This document shows positions 7,618 through 45,468 of a stretch of DNA of 64,000 nucleotides, piece after piece (position 1 is the first letter of the stretch; each line of letters opens with the position of its first letter). The notes under the pieces are model-generated. The model ran no database searches. It saw only the letters and a list, made by a program, of their open reading frames with translations, and had not been told where the DNA came from. The position numbers and the translations under genes are program-made. The stretch comes from an uncultured Planctomycetota bacterium (GTDB lineage: Bacteria > Planctomycetota > Phycisphaerae > Sedimentisphaerales > UBA12454): contig CAINDG010000018.1 in NCBI GenBank assembly GCA_903847315.1, positions 1-64,000 of the forward strand, read 5' to 3'.

Positions 7618-8211
7618 ATGGCAACGATGACAATCTCGGAAGCAGAACACATTATCAATATAACGGTCGCAGCTTTACTAGAAGAGCAAACTTCCAGCAA
7701 CGGTGAGGACCAGAAAAACCACTTCTTGGAATACTACTGCCACAAACCCATTTCTACTCTTCAAGGATATGATGTATTTCAAATTGATATCGCACTGAAA
7801 TTGCGACTTGCCAACATGTTTTTGTTTTTAGCGGAAAAGAATGGTTTTAAAGAACGGTTCGCAGAAGAAATAAAAATCTGTACACTTCCTCGCCTACCAC
7901 TCCGCAAGTTTATCCCGGATGATTTAATGGCCAAGTTGGAGCAATTGAATGAATTATCCAAGACGCTCCCGCAAGATTCTCCAGAGTTCCTGAAACGCAA
8001 CCTTCCTGTTACAGGAGAACTGTTAGCCTTCAAGGAACGCAAAGACAAAAAATTACTTTCTCTCGAAACGGCATCATCGTTTGGAGAGTATTGTAGATGT
8101 GTTGGAGCGAATGACCCTATCTACTGGCAGAAGATATACACTCGTATCGGGATTGAATACACATCTACATCACCAAAGGGGAATACTCCGGTGTACACCG
8201 AAACAAATTAA
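7618..8211 (+). CDS. Unrecognised soluble protein in dnaX-recR interval
   Basis: The start is the ATG at 7618, placed 8 bp after AAGGAG (7605-7610); an upstream in-frame ATG at 7573 has no such site. The 197-residue product is soluble, without signal peptide or membrane helix. N-terminal ISEAEHIINITVAALLEE is helical; the middle (FQIDIALKLRLANMFLFLAEKNGF) is amphipathic; Pro-rich loops follow. No known domain is seen. It is transcribed in the direction of recR and divergently from the membrane-protein gene, so the two may be functionally linked, but nothing in either sequence shows it. Confidence 0.75.
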   Translation: MATMTISEAEHIINITVAALLEEQTSSNGEDQKNHFLEYYCHKPISTLQGYDVFQIDIALKLRLANMFLFLAEKNGFKERFAEEIKICTLPRLPLRKFIPDDLMAKLEQLNELSKTLPQDSPEFLKRNLPVTGELLAFKERKDKKLLSLETASSFGEYCRCVGANDPIYWQKIYTRIGIEYTSTSPKGNTPVYTETN

Positions 8212-20262: not shown

Positions 20263-21651
20263 ATGAAACAAAACAACATCTTAATAGTTGACGACGACAA
20301 AATAATACTCGATTCGTTGTGTGAATTTCTAAAACTCGAAGGCTACAGCACTGCCGGGGCCGAATCATACAAGCAGGCTGTGAATATGGTGCAGAAACAG
20401 AAATTCGCGCTCGTCCTCACCGACGTTAATCTGCCGGACGGAGGCGGACTCGAACTGCTCAATCTCATCAGAAAAAATTATCCGCAAACTGTGGTAATTA
20501 TCATTACAGGTTACGGCACTATCGAAAGCGCGGTTGAGGCGATTAAACTGGGCGCTTACGATTATCTTACAAAACCTATTATCGATGACGAACTGCGCCT
20601 GACTATCGAAAGAGCCCTTAAGCAGCAGTCGCTCATCAGCGAAAATGAAAATCTTAAAAGTCAGCTCGAACACAAGTACAGTCTTGATAACATAATCAGC
20701 CAGGATTACAAAATGGCGAAAATCTTCGACCTCGTCGAAGCCGTCGCCGACAGCAGGTCCAATATCCTTATGACAGGCCCCAGCGGCACCGGAAAAACAA
20801 TGCTCGCAAGAGCAATCCACTGGCGCTCCGGCAGAAAAGACAAACCGTTTGTCGAGGTAAGCTGCGGCGCTCTGCCGGAAACTCTGCTCGAAAGCGAATT
20901 GTTCGGGCACGTCAAAGGCTCTTTTACCGGCGCTATCGGCGACAAACAGGGAAAATTTCTCGCCGCCGACGGCGGAACAATCTTTCTCGATGAAATCGCA
21001 AGCGCATCGGCGGCTATGCAGGTAAAACTTTTGCGCGTTATTCAGGAAAGGCAGTTCGAACCTGTCGGCAGCAATAAAACTATTACCGTTGATACCCGTC
21101 TGATAGTCGCTTCGAATAAAAATATGCCAGATGAAGTGAAAAACGGCAGGTTCAGGGAAGATTTGTATTACAGAATTAATGTAATAACGATAAATCTTCC
21201 TGCGCTTAACGAAAAGCCGGCGGATATTCCGCTGCTTGCCAATCATTTTATGAAAAATTTCTGCCTGATGCATAACCGCCAAAAGAAGGGAATTGCAGAC
21301 CGTGCGATGGACGCCATCCAGAGATATAATTGGCCGGGAAATGTGCGCGAGCTCGAGAATATAATGGAAAGAGCGGTTCTGCTCAGCAAAACAGATTTCA
21401 TTACGCTCGAAGATTTGCCTGTCAATATAACTTCTCACACGCCCGAATTTGCTCCTGCGGATTTCAATAAAATAAGTCTCAAAAACGCGATAGCCGAACC
21501 TGAAAGAAGAATCATCCGGGCGACTCTCGAAGCGAACAACTGGAACAGACAGCTTACCGCTCAGGCCCTTAAAATCAATAGAACAACTCTTTATAAGAAA
21601 ATGAAAAAATACGGCCTCGAAGACGAAGCCGAAAGACTGGGAATTAGATAA
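20263..21651 (+). CDS. Sigma-54-dependent response regulator, NtrC family
   Basis: The 462-residue activator has a receiver domain with acidic pocket D10-D12 and phospho-acceptor D54 (LTDVNLPDGG), a AAA+ domain with Walker A GPSGTGKT (172-179), the sigma-54 contact loop GSFTGA (219-224, a Ser variant of GAFTGA), Walker B GGTIFLDEI, and a Fis-type helix-turn-helix (NRQLTAQALKINRTTLYKKMKKYG) at the C-terminus. It is cotranscribed with the kinase. It should activate rpoN-dependent promoters; its targets are not visible in this window. Its 3' end overlaps convergent purQ by 8 bp. Confidence 0.95.
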   Translation: MKQNNILIVDDDKIILDSLCEFLKLEGYSTAGAESYKQAVNMVQKQKFALVLTDVNLPDGGGLELLNLIRKNYPQTVVIIITGYGTIESAVEAIKLGAYDYLTKPIIDDELRLTIERALKQQSLISENENLKSQLEHKYSLDNIISQDYKMAKIFDLVEAVADSRSNILMTGPSGTGKTMLARAIHWRSGRKDKPFVEVSCGALPETLLESELFGHVKGSFTGAIGDKQGKFLAADGGTIFLDEIASASAAMQVKLLRVIQERQFEPVGSNKTITVDTRLIVASNKNMPDEVKNGRFREDLYYRINVITINLPALNEKPADIPLLANHFMKNFCLMHNRQKKGIADRAMDAIQRYNWPGNVRELENIMERAVLLSKTDFITLEDLPVNITSHTPEFAPADFNKISLKNAIAEPERRIIRATLEANNWNRQLTAQALKINRTTLYKKMKKYGLEDEAERLGIR

Positions 21652-22429
21652 GGTTTTGTTTTACATATTTTACCGCATTGTCAAAGATTGTCCTGCCGTC
21701 GGCGCGTGTCTTATCTTTTAATCTTGTCCAGTGCGGATGCTGAGTAAATCTTATAAATCTTTCCGGATGCGGCATAAGACCCATTACCCTGCCTGTTGAA
21801 TCACATAGACCAGCGATTGAATCTGTCGAGCCGTTGGGGTTTATCGGGAATGGACCGAAGTTGCCGTTTTCGTCAACATATCGCAGCGTAATCCGGTCGT
21901 CCGCTTTTAGTTTTTCAAGCACATCATTATTTTCAAAGAGAATTTTCCCTTCGCCGTGCGCTACCGGCAGATAAATTCTTCTGCCCTGTTCGATGAAGAC
22001 GCATTTTTTGCTCGAAGGCTCAAGATAAACCCACCTGTCTTCATATCTGCCGCTGTCGTTATTGGTAATTGTTATCTGCTGTTTGCCGCTCGGCTCGATT
22101 TTGCCGAGAATTCCCGTTTTGATAAGAACCTGAAAACCGTTGCAGATGCCCAGAACGATTTTGCCTGCTTCTATAAAGGCGTTGAGCCTGTCGGAAAAAT
22201 GATGAATAATCTGATTTGCGAGGATTTTGCCCGCCGCAACGTCGTCGCCGTAACTGAAACCGCCCGGAACAACAAGAATTTGAAACTCATCGAGTAAATC
22301 AGGATTTTCAATAATCCTGTTTACGTGAACTCTCTGCGCCTCTGCGCCTGAAAGCTCGAGTGCGTATTGCGTCTCGACATCGCAATTTATTCCTGCCGCT
22401 CTTAATACTATTGCTTTTACTTTTGTCAT
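21644..22429 (-). CDS. purQ: Phosphoribosylformylglycinamidine synthase, glutaminase subunit
   Basis: The glutamine amidotransferase half of FGAM synthase (purine step 4). The 261-residue class I amidotransferase has PGGFSYGDDVAAG (oxyanion region), the nucleophile Cys96 in GICNGFQ and the His-Glu pair in MPHPERF near the C-terminus. It is longer than compact PurQ (about 220), similar to the GATase part of large PurL. It lies downstream of purL in the same orientation but is separated from it by an unrelated nuclease-like gene. Confidence 0.94.
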   Translation of the reverse strand: MTKVKAIVLRAAGINCDVETQYALELSGAEAQRVHVNRIIENPDLLDEFQILVVPGGFSYGDDVAAGKILANQIIHHFSDRLNAFIEAGKIVLGICNGFQVLIKTGILGKIEPSGKQQITITNNDSGRYEDRWVYLEPSSKKCVFIEQGRRIYLPVAHGEGKILFENNDVLEKLKADDRITLRYVDENGNFGPFPINPNGSTDSIAGLCDSTGRVMGLMPHPERFIRFTQHPHWTRLKDKTRADGRTIFDNAVKYVKQNLI

Positions 22430-22497
22430 ATTCTGTCTTTTTTGATAGTTGTCATTTTCGTAAAAGTTTTGTCTAATTCTTCATTATAACTCATAAC

Positions 22498-23571
22498 TCA
22501 TACTCTGTTTATACCTGCAGGAGTCAATGCCATTATGGTATCGACGGCACTCGTTCCCGCTGGGGCTATGTGATTAGTGCGAATCAGCTTCACGTTCAAA
22601 TATCCAACCGGATTCTCATCCCAACTATCATCTTTTTTCCTTTGGTAAAGATACAGCCTTTCCCCATCTGTGAGAAGGATTCTCTTGCAGTTATCCAGTT
22701 TAAGCCGTTTAATGTAATTTGTAGCCTGAGAGAAAGTCTTATTCTGTAGTCCGTGCCCATACTCCTTTGCTTCGCACAACAGGCACACATTTTCCTTTTT
22801 CCTAGGTGTGCGCGAGAAGGCAGCAAGGTCTATCCGATTCCACTCGACGGCGAGAAGTTGTTCAGACCACCCCAGAGCGAGCATAAATGGCAATATCATA
22901 TGAGCCACAACCTCGTGCTCTGCGGGCTTTTTAGATTGCGCTCTATACCATTTCGCCAACCGTCTTTGCCTTTGTATAGCCAATATGAACTTATCTACAT
23001 CTTCATTTGGCAAACCTTTTGAGAATAACTCGGTGCCAAGCTCTTCCAACGTTAACGGTTCGGGCAAAGAAGGCAAAGGTTTCAAGTCTCGAGGTTTACA
23101 TTGCTTGAACAGTTCCAGTATCTGGCCTTCTAATCTATTAACTTTGCTGAAAGCAGAACCACGATAATAGAACAGCCCTTTACTCTTTTGTATTTTTTGC
23201 AAATCATCCGTCAAATGATGCTGCCAGATAACTCTGCGAGTGTGCTGCAAATCCCAGCCAAAAACATCATCAAAAGTTGACATCCAACGGTACTCTCCCG
23301 GTGCCCTCCATGGCCTAATCCAGCCAATTGCCTTCGCTTGCGACCCCAAACGAAGCAAAACAATGTCGTTACCATTAATTTCCGTGCAGAATTGACGTAG
23401 TTGTGTCGCAATACCTTTTTTAACCAAACCCTGCTCAACTAAGGCATCATAACTATGTTTATAATAAGCACCTGGATTACCGGGCCCCATAAACATCAAG
23501 TCGTAATCGAGGAATAGTTTTGTATAATCTCTTCCTGTCTCACCGGCTGCTATTTGCCAAACCTGAGGCAT
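22498..23571 (-). CDS. Putative restriction-type nuclease: EVE/PUA-like N-terminus plus HsdR-N-like PD-(D/E)xK domain
   Basis: The 357-residue protein has two parts. Residues 1-110 (VWQIAAGE, FMGPGNPGAY, NGNDIVLLRLGSQAKAIGWI) resemble EVE/PUA-like modified-base readers in order of elements. Residues 210-315 match the HsdR N-terminal nuclease: HEVVAHMILPFMLALGW, then E243/D248 (VEWNRIDLA), E267-A-K269 (LLCEAKEYG), Q282xxxY286 (QATNY) and LLTDGERLYLY. The DxnExK-QxxxY set is that of RecB-like nucleases. A reader plus nuclease would make a type IV-like modification-dependent enzyme. The domain assignment is by eye; nuclease part is more certain than the EVE part. Confidence 0.65.
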   Translation of the reverse strand: MPQVWQIAAGETGRDYTKLFLDYDLMFMGPGNPGAYYKHSYDALVEQGLVKKGIATQLRQFCTEINGNDIVLLRLGSQAKAIGWIRPWRAPGEYRWMSTFDDVFGWDLQHTRRVIWQHHLTDDLQKIQKSKGLFYYRGSAFSKVNRLEGQILELFKQCKPRDLKPLPSLPEPLTLEELGTELFSKGLPNEDVDKFILAIQRQRRLAKWYRAQSKKPAEHEVVAHMILPFMLALGWSEQLLAVEWNRIDLAAFSRTPRKKENVCLLCEAKEYGHGLQNKTFSQATNYIKRLKLDNCKRILLTDGERLYLYQRKKDDSWDENPVGYLNVKLIRTNHIAPAGTSAVDTIMALTPAGINRV

Positions 23572-23623
23572 TTATTACCTTTCATTTTTGCGATAGTGTT
23601 TTTTCGATGGTTAATTACCAACG

Positions 23624-26503
23624 CTACCACTTCAACGGTTTCTGCCAGGCGTTTTTCAGATTGTTAATCGCGACATCCACGATTGTTTTGCCCAGGCTGT
23701 CTTTTATAATTATATTTTTATCTTCGATTACTTTCCCAATCTGCCCGAACGCAGCGCCGAGCATAAGTTTGGCGAAAGCATTAAACTTCTCCGGCTCAAC
23801 TTCGACAATATACCGCGAGCACGATTCACCGAAAAGCTGCGAGGCTAAATTCGTGCAGTCATCGGTTCTCGGCAGACCCTTCAGGTCGGCAAGTATTCCC
23901 AGTCCGCCCGAAAAGGCCATTTCCGCAAGCGCAACCGCAAGGCCGCCTTCACTGCAATCGTGACAGCTTGCGATAAGTCCTGCGTCGATTGCCTTGTGAA
24001 TTTTTTCCGCGTTTAATTTCGCCATTCTCAAATCGGTTTTCGGAACGTTCGCTCCAAGCTGATTTTTAATCTTATAATAATGTGAAGCGCCAAGCTCGTT
24101 TCTCGTAAGGCCGACCATAAATAATAAATTGCCCGCCGATTTCAAGTCCGCTGTTACGCATTTCTTGACATCATCGACGATGCCGATTGCGCTTATCAGC
24201 AGCGTCGCTGGTATGGAAATTTCTCTGCCGTCGTCGCAGATAAAATTATTATTCAGCGAATCTTTGCCTGATATGAAAGGCGTTCCGAACGCGATAGCCC
24301 CATCGAAACACGCCTGCGCCGCCCTGACAAGTGAGCCTAACGTTTCTTCTTTTTTGCAGTCTGCCCAGCAGAAATTGTCGAGCAGTGCGATTCTGTCCGG
24401 CCTTGCCCCGACGCAAACAACGTTTCTTATCGCCTCATCGATTCCCGCAAGAGCCATCCAGTACGGGTCGATATCGCCGTACAAAGGATTCATTCCGCAG
24501 CCGATTACAATACCTTTGTCGCTGTCGAATTTCGGCTGAACCACCGCCGCATCGTTCGGCCCATCATTTGTAATTCCGCCGAGCGGTTTTATAACCGAGC
24601 CGGCCTGAACTTCGTGGTCATACTGGCGGATAACCCACTCTTTGCTTGCGACATTATACGTCGAAAGAATTTTTAAAAGGTCTTCACCATAATTTTCTTT
24701 TGTCTCAGAAACAGGTTCCGACAGATTTTTTGAACTCCATCGTGCCTTTCTCGAATATTTTGGCAGGCCGTCGTGCAGAAAATCCATATCAATCTGACCG
24801 ACCTGCGTACCCTGATATTTCAGTGTAAGTTTTTTATCATTTGTAAATCTGCCGATGATGGTCGCCTCGACATTTTCATCGGCGAATATTTTACTTATCC
24901 GTTCAAGGTTTTCAGGTTTTACCGCGACAACCATTCTCTCCTGCGCCTCGCTAATCCATATTTCGGTATAGGAAAGGCCCGCGTATTTGAGCGGAATTTT
25001 TTCAAGGTCAACTTCCGCGCCCAAATCAGCGCCCATTTCGCCGACCGCGCTGCTCAGTCCGCCCGCCCCGCAGTCGGTAATCGCGCTGTAAAGACCCTGC
25101 TCTCTCGCCTGCAGGAGTGTATCGAGCATTTTCTTTTCGGTAATGGCGTTTCCAATCTGAACAGCGTGCGAGAAAACCGTTTCGTGTTCGTGCGTCATCG
25201 CGCCGCTCGAAAAAGTCGCGCCGTGTATGCCGTCCCTGCCGGTCTTTCCGCCGACGACCATAACAAGCTCGCCCGTTTCAGCTTTTCCGAAACATTTGTC
25301 CCTCGGCATAATTCCGATATTGCCGCAGAACACCAGTGGATTGCCGAGATAGCGGTCGTCGAAAAATATCGCGCCGTTAACGGTCGGTATTCCCATCCTG
25401 TTGCCGTAATCTCTTACGCCCGCGACAACGCCTTTGGCGATTCGTTTGGGATGCAGAATGCCATGCGGAATTTCGTCGAAACTTTTGTCCGGCTCCGCGA
25501 AACAGAAAATATCCGTATTGGCAATCGGCTTTGCTCCCAGTCCCGTACCCATCGGGTCCCGCAGAACCCCGCCGATTCCCGTCGCCGCCCCGCCGTAAGG
25601 GTCGAGCGCGGATGGATGATTATGCGTCTCGACTTTGAAGCAGACCGCGTCGGTATCATCGAATTCTATTACGCCCGCGTTATCTTTAAAAACGCTTATA
25701 CACCAGTCTTTGTTGAGCTGTTTCGTGGCGCCAAAAATCGTATCTTTTATAAGATTATCGAAATGAATCTTTTGGCCTTCAAAATCGAAGTCAACGCTGC
25801 TCTTTAAAGTTTTGTGAACGCAGTGTTCGCTCCAGGTCTGGGCAAGCGCCTCAAGTTCGATATCCGTAGGTTCTCTGTTCTGTGTCTTGAAATAATTCTG
25901 AATAGTTTTCATCTCAACGACATTGAGAAACAAATCCATTTTCTTGCTAATCTCTAAAAGCTGCTGCTCGTTGAGCTTTGTCATATCGACAGTTTTAAGT
26001 TTTAGTTTATATGGAGCAAGATGCGGACTTGGCGGCTCTGCGTTTGCGCCGATAACAACCACCTCGATGCAGTCGTTCGAAAGTCTGCGGACGATTTTTT
26101 TTAGCTGCTTTTCGGAAATCTCGCCGAACAGAACATATTTTCTCGCGGTTCTGACCGTCTGGCATTTTTTGCCCATATCGTCAACAGCCGTCATAACCGA
26201 CTCAGCGACAGGGTCCGTAACGCCGCTCTTGAGATGAATTTCTATAATGGTTGCTTTCGCCAGACCTGCCGGCGCCGCGCTTTTGCCGATGTAAAAATCT
26301 TCGCAGACCGGGTCCGCGAGCATCTCGCCGGCGATTCGCTTCGCAAAGTTGTCGTCAAAATCCCCTTCAATCAGAAAAACTCTCGCCGACTGGACTTCCT
26401 GGACAGTATCGATGCCGAGTTCTTTTACATCCCCGAGAACTTCCCTGCCGTGTACGTCGTCGCTGCCGGGCCTGTTGAAAACTTCAAAACGCCATTGTTT
26501 CAC
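23624..26503 (-). CDS. purL: Phosphoribosylformylglycinamidine synthase, large subunit with PurS-like N-terminus
   Basis: ATP-dependent FGAM synthase. The 959-residue protein is longer than small PurL (about 740); the extra N-terminal ~180 residues contain two PurS-like segments (MKQWRFEVFNRPG...VQEVQSARVFLIEGDF; then ATIIEIHLKSGVTDP). The rest has the duplicated AIR-synthase fold: ALAQTWSEHCVHKTLKS, VCFKVETHNHPSALDPYGGAATGIGG, and GGKTGRDGIHGATFSSG, with the second half ending in CHDCSEGGLAVALAEM. The glutaminase is separate (purQ). Its start overlaps the stop of tyrA by 4 bp. Confidence 0.95.
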   Translation of the reverse strand: MKQWRFEVFNRPGSDDVHGREVLGDVKELGIDTVQEVQSARVFLIEGDFDDNFAKRIAGEMLADPVCEDFYIGKSAAPAGLAKATIIEIHLKSGVTDPVAESVMTAVDDMGKKCQTVRTARKYVLFGEISEKQLKKIVRRLSNDCIEVVVIGANAEPPSPHLAPYKLKLKTVDMTKLNEQQLLEISKKMDLFLNVVEMKTIQNYFKTQNREPTDIELEALAQTWSEHCVHKTLKSSVDFDFEGQKIHFDNLIKDTIFGATKQLNKDWCISVFKDNAGVIEFDDTDAVCFKVETHNHPSALDPYGGAATGIGGVLRDPMGTGLGAKPIANTDIFCFAEPDKSFDEIPHGILHPKRIAKGVVAGVRDYGNRMGIPTVNGAIFFDDRYLGNPLVFCGNIGIMPRDKCFGKAETGELVMVVGGKTGRDGIHGATFSSGAMTHEHETVFSHAVQIGNAITEKKMLDTLLQAREQGLYSAITDCGAGGLSSAVGEMGADLGAEVDLEKIPLKYAGLSYTEIWISEAQERMVVAVKPENLERISKIFADENVEATIIGRFTNDKKLTLKYQGTQVGQIDMDFLHDGLPKYSRKARWSSKNLSEPVSETKENYGEDLLKILSTYNVASKEWVIRQYDHEVQAGSVIKPLGGITNDGPNDAAVVQPKFDSDKGIVIGCGMNPLYGDIDPYWMALAGIDEAIRNVVCVGARPDRIALLDNFCWADCKKEETLGSLVRAAQACFDGAIAFGTPFISGKDSLNNNFICDDGREISIPATLLISAIGIVDDVKKCVTADLKSAGNLLFMVGLTRNELGASHYYKIKNQLGANVPKTDLRMAKLNAEKIHKAIDAGLIASCHDCSEGGLAVALAEMAFSGGLGILADLKGLPRTDDCTNLASQLFGESCSRYIVEVEPEKFNAFAKLMLGAAFGQIGKVIEDKNIIIKDSLGKTIVDVAINNLKNAWQKPLKW

Positions 26504-43115: not shown

Positions 43116-43757
43116 ATGACAACGGTACCAGCTAATCCCAAGATATATCATATTACCCATATTGATAATTTTGACAATATCTTAAGGGACAAAGTATTGT
43201 GGTCGGATGCTAAACGGATTGAACGTGGAATGCCATGTGAAATTATAGGAATGTCAGAGATTAAGAGACGAAGACTTGTTCTGCCAGTTGATTGTCATCT
43301 CAATACAACAGTAGGCCAATATGTCCCATTTTACTTTTGCTCTCGCTCGATAATGTTATTTATTCTACATAAAGGTAATCATCCAGATATTACTTATCAT
43401 GGTGGACAGGAGCCTATTTTACATCTGGAAGTAGATTTAAAAGCCGCAATTCGTTGGGCAGAGAACAACAACGTTCGTTGGGCTTTTTCAGACAGAAATG
43501 CAGGTGGATATTTAGCGAAATTTTATAAAAGCGTTGACGATCTTGATAAAATTAATTGGCCAGCAGTGGAATCAACCGTTTTTCGTGATATGCTTATTAA
43601 AGAGGGTAAACAGGCAGAGTTTTTGACGTACGAGTCATTTCCTTTGAACCTTATAGAAAAGATAGGAGTATGCAATAGCAGAGTCAGAGACCAAGTTATT
43701 CAAAAATTGGGAAATGTAAGAATACTTGTAACCGTTGAAGGAACATGGTATTATTAA
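43116..43757 (+). CDS. darT: DarT-type DNA ADP-ribosyltransferase toxin
   Basis: DarT transfers ADP-ribose from NAD+ to thymidine in single-stranded DNA, blocking replication. The 213-residue protein has the family's N-terminal YHITHIDNFDNIL (NAD-site His12), a basic IKRRRLV turn (51-55), QYVPFYFCSRSIMLF, and Glu168 in KQAEFLTYESFP at the position of the catalytic Glu. Length and element order fit DarT2. The antitoxin gene follows after 18 bp. The catalytic residues appear intact, so it should be active. Confidence 0.9.
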   Translation: MTTVPANPKIYHITHIDNFDNILRDKVLWSDAKRIERGMPCEIIGMSEIKRRRLVLPVDCHLNTTVGQYVPFYFCSRSIMLFILHKGNHPDITYHGGQEPILHLEVDLKAAIRWAENNNVRWAFSDRNAGGYLAKFYKSVDDLDKINWPAVESTVFRDMLIKEGKQAEFLTYESFPLNLIEKIGVCNSRVRDQVIQKLGNVRILVTVEGTWYY

Positions 43758-43775
43758 GCAACAAGGACTAAAATT

Positions 43776-44834
43776 ATGTTAAAGCTAATAAAAGGCGATA
43801 TACTTAAAGCTGATACTGAAGCCCTTGTTAACACCGTTAATTGCATGGGCATAATGGGTAGAGGAATTGCTCTGCAATTTCGAAAAGCTTTCCCTGATAA
43901 TTTCAAGGTATATGAATCCGCTTGCGATAAAAAGCAACTCCATCCGGGAAAGATGTTAGTTTGTGATTTGAATCGCTTTGAAAATCCAAGATACGTGATT
44001 AATTTCCCTACAAAAAGGCATTGGAAAGGTAAGAGTAAAATTGAAGATATAGAGTCCGGGCTTAAAGCATTAATAGAAGAAGTTAGCAAACGCAATATTA
44101 GATCTATTGCAATTCCTCCATTGGGGTGTGGTCTTGGTGGTTTGAATTGGCAAAAAGTTAAAGCGATGATCGAAAAAACATTTGAAGCTTTGCCTCAAGT
44201 GCAAGTATTGCTTTATGAGCCTGCTGGTGCGCCAGAGGCCGAAGTTATGGTCAAAGAAAAGAAATTGCCGAAGATGACTATCGGACGAGCGGCATTATTA
44301 GGGTTAATGAATCGCTACCTGGAAGCAGTAATGGATCCTTTTATAAGCTTACTCGAAATACACAAACTTATGTATTTTATGCAGGAGGCCGGTGAAAAAC
44401 TCAAGCTGAAATATTCTAAAGCTCCTTATGGTCCCTATGCTCAGAATCTGCGACATGTTCTTAATGTTATCGAAGGACATTTCATTCGTGGTTTTGCGGA
44501 TGGGGAAGACAGACCAGACATACAAATTGAATTACTGCCTGAAGTTGCTAAACAAGCCAACCTTTCTCTGAAGAATAATACAGAAACTCAAGAACGATTT
44601 GAACGTGTTGTAAATTTGATCAAAGGATTCGAAACTCCGTTTGGCATGGAATTATTATCTACGGTGCATTGGGTAACTACTCGAGAAAACGCAACAACTG
44701 TAGATGAAGCTATCGAAAAAACCTATGCTTGGAATGATCGAAAACGAATGTTTCAGGAAGAACATATACGAATTGCATGGAAGGTTCTTGAAGAAAAAGG
44801 CTGGCTGACAAAACTGCTTAAAGCAAATAATTAA
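43776..44834 (+). CDS. darG: DarG-type macrodomain antitoxin
   Basis: DarG removes ADP-ribose from DNA and also binds DarT. The 352-residue protein has an N-terminal macrodomain (1-150): KGDILKADTEALVNTVNCMG, MGRGIALQFRKAFP, and AIPPLGCGLGGLNW at the ADP-ribose phosphate loop. The C-terminal domain (about 170-352; RAALLGLMNRYLEAVMDPFI, KAPYGPYAQNLRHVL) is the DarT-binding domain. It is cotranscribed with darT. It is a complete toxin-antitoxin pair; such pairs can act as anti-phage defence. Confidence 0.92.
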   Translation: MLKLIKGDILKADTEALVNTVNCMGIMGRGIALQFRKAFPDNFKVYESACDKKQLHPGKMLVCDLNRFENPRYVINFPTKRHWKGKSKIEDIESGLKALIEEVSKRNIRSIAIPPLGCGLGGLNWQKVKAMIEKTFEALPQVQVLLYEPAGAPEAEVMVKEKKLPKMTIGRAALLGLMNRYLEAVMDPFISLLEIHKLMYFMQEAGEKLKLKYSKAPYGPYAQNLRHVLNVIEGHFIRGFADGEDRPDIQIELLPEVAKQANLSLKNNTETQERFERVVNLIKGFETPFGMELLSTVHWVTTRENATTVDEAIEKTYAWNDRKRMFQEEHIRIAWKVLEEKGWLTKLLKANN

Positions 44835-44853: not shown

Positions 44854-45468
44854 CTAAATATTGCGTTTTTTGTATTTTCGCAAATTCTCCTGCAATAAGA
44901 AACTCCTGAACGGCTCATTCTTAAAACACGGGAAATTCAAAGGTGCGTAATCCTCCTCGCCCGCCTGTAAAACAAATCTATCACGCGCAAAGGCGGCGAT
45001 AATCCGATTTTCAGGGTTGTCAGGCAATTGAAACGAAAGTTCCTTACCATCGGCGGCTTGGAACTTTGCAGCGCAATAACATCTTCCTTTTTTGTGCTTG
45101 ATGCAAACGCCGATAAAACCAGAGGAGTTTTTACATTTTTTGTTAAGACTATTTTGCCTTTTATTTACGATTCGAAGATTACATCTGCGATTGTCCAAGG
45201 GGTTCCTGTTTATATGGTCAACTATCTGGCCTTGCTGGGCATTCATAACAAAACGAGAAAGCAAAAGATGACGGCTGGGGGGCTTGCCAAAGACAATTAC
45301 CGGATAACCTTCGCTGGTAATACGCATCGAAGTAATGCTGCCATTGTATTTTCTGTACGGCTGTTCGTGCCGAGGATTTATGATTTTATAGAAAATGTCC
45401 GGGTCGACTTTGACTATCCGGCCACGTATTTTAAACATCAAATAATTAATTTTACATTTAGTTGGCAT
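44854..45468 (-). CDS. HNH endonuclease with AP2-like DNA-binding segment
   Basis: The 204-residue protein has an HNH core (QIVDHINRNPLDNRRCNLRIVNKRQN) followed by a segment like the AP2/integrase-type DNA-binding domain (SSGFIGVCIKHKKGRCYCAAK), an arrangement common in phage-borne free-standing homing endonucleases. GGAG precedes the ATG at 45468. It is transcribed toward darG, ending 20 bp from it, and marks the right edge of the accessory island. Selfish endonuclease activity is inferred from family; no target is visible. Confidence 0.85.
   Translation of the reverse strand: MPTKCKINYLMFKIRGRIVKVDPDIFYKIINPRHEQPYRKYNGSITSMRITSEGYPVIVFGKPPSRHLLLSRFVMNAQQGQIVDHINRNPLDNRRCNLRIVNKRQNSLNKKCKNSSGFIGVCIKHKKGRCYCAAKFQAADGKELSFQLPDNPENRIIAAFARDRFVLQAGEEDYAPLNFPCFKNEPFRSFLLQENLRKYKKRNI

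Follow-up and report, generated by a model that had tools for sequence, protein, structure and literature searches.

Fusions of an EVE domain to a PD-(D/E)XK nuclease are predicted type IV restriction enzymes, according to Bell, Wolf and Koonin 2020 (PMC7641849), and the EVE-HNH protein VcaM4I is a proven one, which flips 5mC or 5hmC into its EVE pocket (PMC7897488). The DUF499-centred systems, namely Hma and BREX-related types 1-3, have a core of helicase, N6-methylase and ATPase (PMC12839542), and standalone EVE proteins accompany such systems in archaea (PMC7641849). Here we describe a compact gene from a planctomycete purine operon whose product joins a candidate reader domain to a predicted PD-(D/E)xK nuclease domain, and whose relatives occur both alone and within Hma-type loci.

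Results

The window, by which we mean the whole stretch of 64,000 nucleotides analysed, is part of contig 18 in the 2.4-Mb draft genome of a planctomycete. It contains, as originally predicted, a lone gene between purL and purQ, all three co-oriented on the minus strand, and no methylase gene adjoins it. The locus is laid out as follows.

21644-22429, minus strand: purQ, 261 aa, downstream flank (Pfam GATase_5)
22430-23623, minus strand: inserted segment relative to the empty purL-purQ junction, 1194 nt (comparison with six congeners; repeat scan)
22498-23571, minus strand: reader-nuclease gene, complete, a 357-aa ORF with an ATG start (11 full-length homologs)
22582-22929, minus strand: predicted PD-(D/E)xK domain, residues 215-330 (Pfam HSDR_N_2 / HSDR_N, E 5e-4 to 1e-3; invariant motifs)
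22714-22728, minus strand: QxxxY motif, Q282 to Y286 (Q282 and Y286 identical in 12/12 homologs)
22765-22773, minus strand: putative catalytic E267-A268-K269 (identical in 12/12 homologs)
22828-22830, minus strand: putative catalytic Asp248 (identical in 12/12 homologs)
22930-23205, minus strand: variable linker, residues 123-214 (from the alignment; partly absent in the Hma-embedded clade)
23206-23571, minus strand: N-terminal domain, residues 1-122 (profile matches; hhalign to McrB-like/Mrr_cat N-domains; putatively EVE/PUA-like)
23624-26503, minus strand: purL (the PurS-PurL fusion purSL), 959 aa, upstream flank (Pfam)

PADLOC, NCBIfam and PHROGs returned no match for the 357-aa protein. 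In all six congeners compared, purL and purQ are directly adjacent, with a spacing of a few nucleotides to about 105 nt, and the gene is missing from all 12 other genomes of the same family; the insertion is thus lineage-specific, in line with the expectation that purL and purQ normally adjoin. A repeat scan of the 1194-nt segment detected no inverted repeats, transposase gene or mobile-element marks, and the sole direct repeat at the insertion is 14 nt long and imperfect. Promoter-like sites ahead of the gene on its strand did not exceed the number found by chance; its expression probably depends on transcription of the pur operon. Its surroundings show no phage, viral or plasmid defence island, and neither the viral contigs nor the phages scanned yielded a homolog. 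Genome-wide searches for two families, the DUF1156 methylase and the DUF499 ATPase, found neither in this genome. Elsewhere in the window, positions 43116-44834 (plus strand) encode DarTG, a toxin-antitoxin pair in which DarT (PADLOC E 4e-61) precedes the macro-domain protein DarG (PADLOC E 1e-138), and an HNH_3 endonuclease ORF adjoins this pair on the opposite strand (44854-45468, minus).

The N-terminus had been called EVE/PUA-like. A profile of the first ~120 residues, searched over 392 Planctomycetota genomes, matched the family itself and larger proteins outside it; ten of the outside matches, passed through Pfam, comprised five AAA_5 (McrB-like) proteins, four Mrr_cat proteins and one small protein without a match. 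By hhalign of the family N-domain against the McrB-like and Mrr_cat N-domains (98.9%, E 2.3e-17, 108 columns), it is homologous to a domain that Planctomycetota also carry on McrB-like GTPases and on Mrr_cat nucleases. Even with E values as high as 5 admitted, Pfam EVE (PF01878) matched no member of the 11 searched, and there was no PUA call either. Furthermore, in the McrB-like protein L198 a Pfam EVE domain precedes the N-domain homolog, and since both occur in one chain they are distinct domains. We then compared the combined N-domain profile with one built from 20 Pfam EVE domains of the same class. The similarity is weak and lies over a GD...G core (hhalign 56%, E 1e-4, score 31.3), but the score exceeds those of all 100 column shuffles (maximum 23.5), so that kinship with EVE/PUA is likely rather than proven, and we regard it as suggestive. 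The original description therefore stands as far as a reader-like N-domain is concerned, one shared with McrB- and Mrr-type enzymes, while strict EVE identity is suggestive only. AlphaFold, run on the single sequence and on five homologs, gave pLDDT 39 and 41 and no usable model, and Foldseek with the pLDDT-41 model returned no match at E up to 0.001. We therefore claim no fold for the protein. Searching solved structures by sequence gave matches at chance level only.

The C-terminus had been predicted to be an HsdR-N-like PD-(D/E)xK domain with QxxxY. Residues 245-315 match Pfam HSDR_N_2 with E 5e-4 and 20.6 bits, so the domain was found in the HMM search but with a score below the 25-bit cut-off; MmeI_N matches still more weakly (E 0.05). 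Among the 11 family members, four match HSDR_N and two match HSDR_N_2, all weakly. All the putative catalytic residues are present: D248, E267-A268-K269, Q282-A283 and Y286 do not vary among the 12 aligned homologs and stand in the expected D, ExK, QxxxY order. The family profile also matches three ORFs of ~900 aa over the ExK-to-Y stretch; these look, by eye, like MmeI-type restriction-modification proteins, and the match is consistent with a common PD-(D/E)xK type. Judged from this weak but consistent Pfam similarity and the invariant motifs, the C-terminus appears to be a PD-(D/E)xK fold of HSDR_N type.

In a full-length alignment and tree of 12 sequences, the window protein and 11 homologs, the relatives split into two well-supported groups. 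The closest named homolog records belong to Phycisphaerales MAGs, and true family members occur in six of 161 genomes of the order, the remaining weak matches being other nuclease-bearing or unrelated proteins. The first group, here the solitary clade, is scattered and consists of the window gene and seven other known members, with the following identities to the window protein.

G077 (L004): 87%
G492 (L002): 71%
G056 (L003): 70%
G502 (L048): 62%
GN15 MAG (L005): 51%
G108 (L028): 48%
Cupriavidus metallidurans (L017): 33%

The neighbouring genes differ in six of these seven; the seventh, G502, again has the gene between purL and purQ. At no solitary-clade locus inspected does an intact methylase stand beside the homolog. 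Near the G056 homolog, positions 7736-8071 (plus strand) of L003 encode a 111-aa HsdM_N fragment, apparently of a broken hsdM. Just upstream of the G056 and G077 homologs, L003 5800-6000 and L004 5535-5963 are similar by eye at the protein level, as a 142-aa ORF in L004 and a remnant in L003, perhaps of a former partner gene.

The sister clade (L027, L029, L030 and L031; 30-33% identical to the window protein) has a different setting. In all four loci the gene adjoins a DUF499 ATPase matching PADLOC HmaC. A DUF1156 methylase matching PADLOC HmaB was verified for L027 and L033, was made out by eye in L029 and L030 through its shared N-terminal sequence, and was not seen in a clean frame in L031. 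L033 encodes only the N-domain; it is flanked by a DUF1156 methylase and a DUF499 ATPase, both verified, and AAA genes lie in between. On these profile matches, the sister clade occupies Hma-type loci, between the HmaB methylase and the HmaC ATPase where readable, and for this reason the family is not intrinsically methylase-free. The claim of a nuclease without a methylase thus holds for the window locus and the solitary clade but fails for the family as a whole, whose sister clade sits beside the DUF1156 methylase.

The window genome and G077 belong to different families, yet their reader-nucleases are 87% identical compared with 70% for PurQ, and their DNA similarity is confined to the gene, ending at both borders. 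The gene was therefore gained horizontally as a single-gene unit. It is under purifying selection, with dN/dS between the two copies of 0.125 overall and 0.083 for the nuclease part. The copy at the purL-purQ junction of G502, from another family, is 62% identical to the window copy and not its sister; hence the gene either entered this position long ago and was then lost or moved many times, or was inserted there twice.

The position between purL and purQ had been regarded as odd. We measured 130 purL-purQ junctions, from coordinates transcribed by hand, and used leuC-leuD in 87 genomes of the order as a control. Junctions of at least 400 nt numbered 14 of 130 for purL-purQ and 30 of 87 for leuC-leuD; at 700 nt or more, the counts were 10 of 130 and 8 of 87 (p 0.80). 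The idea of a privileged cargo slot does not survive this comparison, because leuC-leuD shows interruptions no less frequently. In this order, operons commonly take up lone genes, and purL-purQ has no special status in this respect; a single control pair is a thin basis for this statement but points clearly, and it warns against over-reading a single gene in a housekeeping operon here. The cargo of long purL-purQ junctions varies, and includes transglutaminase-like, EcsC and PDDEXK_3 genes, a HEPN-MNT pair, an N4/N6 methylase with a CfrBI-like enzyme, and a methylase-Mrr gene. The purL-purQ junction of G534 (L054 340-2659, minus) carries an N4/N6 DNA methylase gene with a CfrBI-like restriction enzyme gene behind it, apparently a complete restriction-modification pair within the pur operon, and that of G504 (L055 328-1860, minus) a gene in which a DNA methylase is joined to an Mrr-like domain. 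At leuC-leuD, five loci (L088, L089, L090, L134, L154) encode a small protein with the pattern YDLEDRT...RSSGSVGANYIEANEALSKKDF, of which the L090 copy matches Pfam 23S_rRNA_IVP, whose proteins normally belong to intervening sequences of 23S rRNA.

Discussion

We propose that the window gene probably encodes a stand-alone, NTP-independent, type IV-like, modification-dependent restriction nuclease. We favour this reading because the N-domain is shared with McrB and Mrr types, the nuclease motifs are invariant, and its own genome has neither DUF1156 nor DUF499. Residues 1-122 would recognise a modified base on invading DNA, probably by flipping it out in the manner of EVE and SRA domains, and would direct the HSDR_N-type PD-(D/E)xK domain to cut nearby, probably as a dimer. 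A partner methylase would not be needed, because host DNA would lack the recognised mark. The gene arrived horizontally as a single unit and lodged in the sense direction between purL and purQ, where the pur operon probably drives its transcription. Modified-base recognition, cleavage and the role in defence are proposed here by analogy with VcaM4I and the predicted EVE-PD(D/E)XK class. We count against this reading the low pLDDT, the weak EVE similarity, the lack of a surrounding defence island and of viral homologs, and the consideration that in methylase-bearing Hma loci the same protein could act otherwise.

That last point leads to a broader and more tentative idea, namely that a single reader-nuclease family has two ways of working, one as an accessory effector within Hma loci and the other as an independent type IV enzyme. 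Together with it, and held just as tentatively, goes the suggestion that the free-standing form escaped from, or was captured by, Hma systems with their methylase and DUF499 ATPase. If true, this would tie BREX-related systems and type IV restriction directly together in evolution.

The window protein might instead be a detached part of an Hma/BREX-related system that is still linked to methylation, with the N-domain reading self marks and restraining the nuclease, so that unmethylated DNA is cut as in types I and II. The sister-clade genes beside DUF499/HmaC, with the DUF1156 methylase on the other side where readable, fit such an origin, as does the N-domain alone in the same slot in L033. 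We nevertheless consider it unlikely: DUF1156 and DUF499 are both missing from the window genome, the inspected solitary loci have no intact methylase alongside, with only the HsdM fragment near L003's homolog, and a nuclease blocked by self methylation alone would be toxic without a methylase. Somewhat less likely again is an abortive or regulatory nuclease, in which the N-domain would sense modified RNA or damaged nucleic acid and RNA or host DNA would be cut. RNA binding is frequent among PUA-type domains, according to PMC7641849; the HSDR_N-type domains of restriction proteins, however, work on DNA, and the distant relatives of the N-domain are McrB- and Mrr-type proteins. The Pfam score under threshold could also point to a decaying or inactive relic, which the intact frame, the low dN/dS (0.125) and the retention of all catalytic residues make improbable. 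Finally, recruitment to purine metabolism, or retention owing to the place in the pur operon, is very improbable despite the homolog at the same junction in G502 (62% identical, another family), since the three nearest homologs are found at other sites of their genomes, the G502 and window copies are not sisters, unrelated genes occupy this junction elsewhere in the order, and leuC-leuD is broken up no less often.

The proposed type IV-like enzyme extends the type IV repertoire by an unannotated compact reader-nuclease family, which PADLOC, NCBIfam and PHROGs do not detect. Because the family occurs both within Hma loci and alone, it also offers a testable case of a component moving between methylation-linked and modification-dependent defence. 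In the open-access papers searched we found no description of the present fusion of a reader with an HSDR_N-type nuclease.

Compared with described systems, the window protein resembles the EVE-PD(D/E)XK and EVE-HNH enzymes (PMC7641849, PMC7897488) in being a single chain with an N-terminal candidate reader of PUA-superfamily type, a C-terminal nuclease and no methylase partner. It differs from them in that its N-domain has no Pfam EVE match and its nuclease is of the HSDR_N type, not HNH or Mrr_cat. The Planctomycetota McrB-like AAA_5 GTPases and Mrr_cat fusions (L190-L204) carry a homologous N-domain (hhalign 98.9%); there it joins a GTPase or Mrr_cat, whereas here it joins an HSDR_N-type nuclease, with no NTPase. 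The link to Hma lies in the sister clade, encoded between genes that match PADLOC HmaB and HmaC; unlike Hma and BREX-related systems, the window gene is solitary, and the published core (PMC12839542) lacks this fused reader-nuclease. The nuclease domain is like the N-terminal domain of HsdR, the type I R subunit, in combining PD-(D/E)xK with QxxxY, while the protein has no helicase/translocase, HsdM or HsdS. The class of architecture is known; the combination, on the open-access papers searched, is new.
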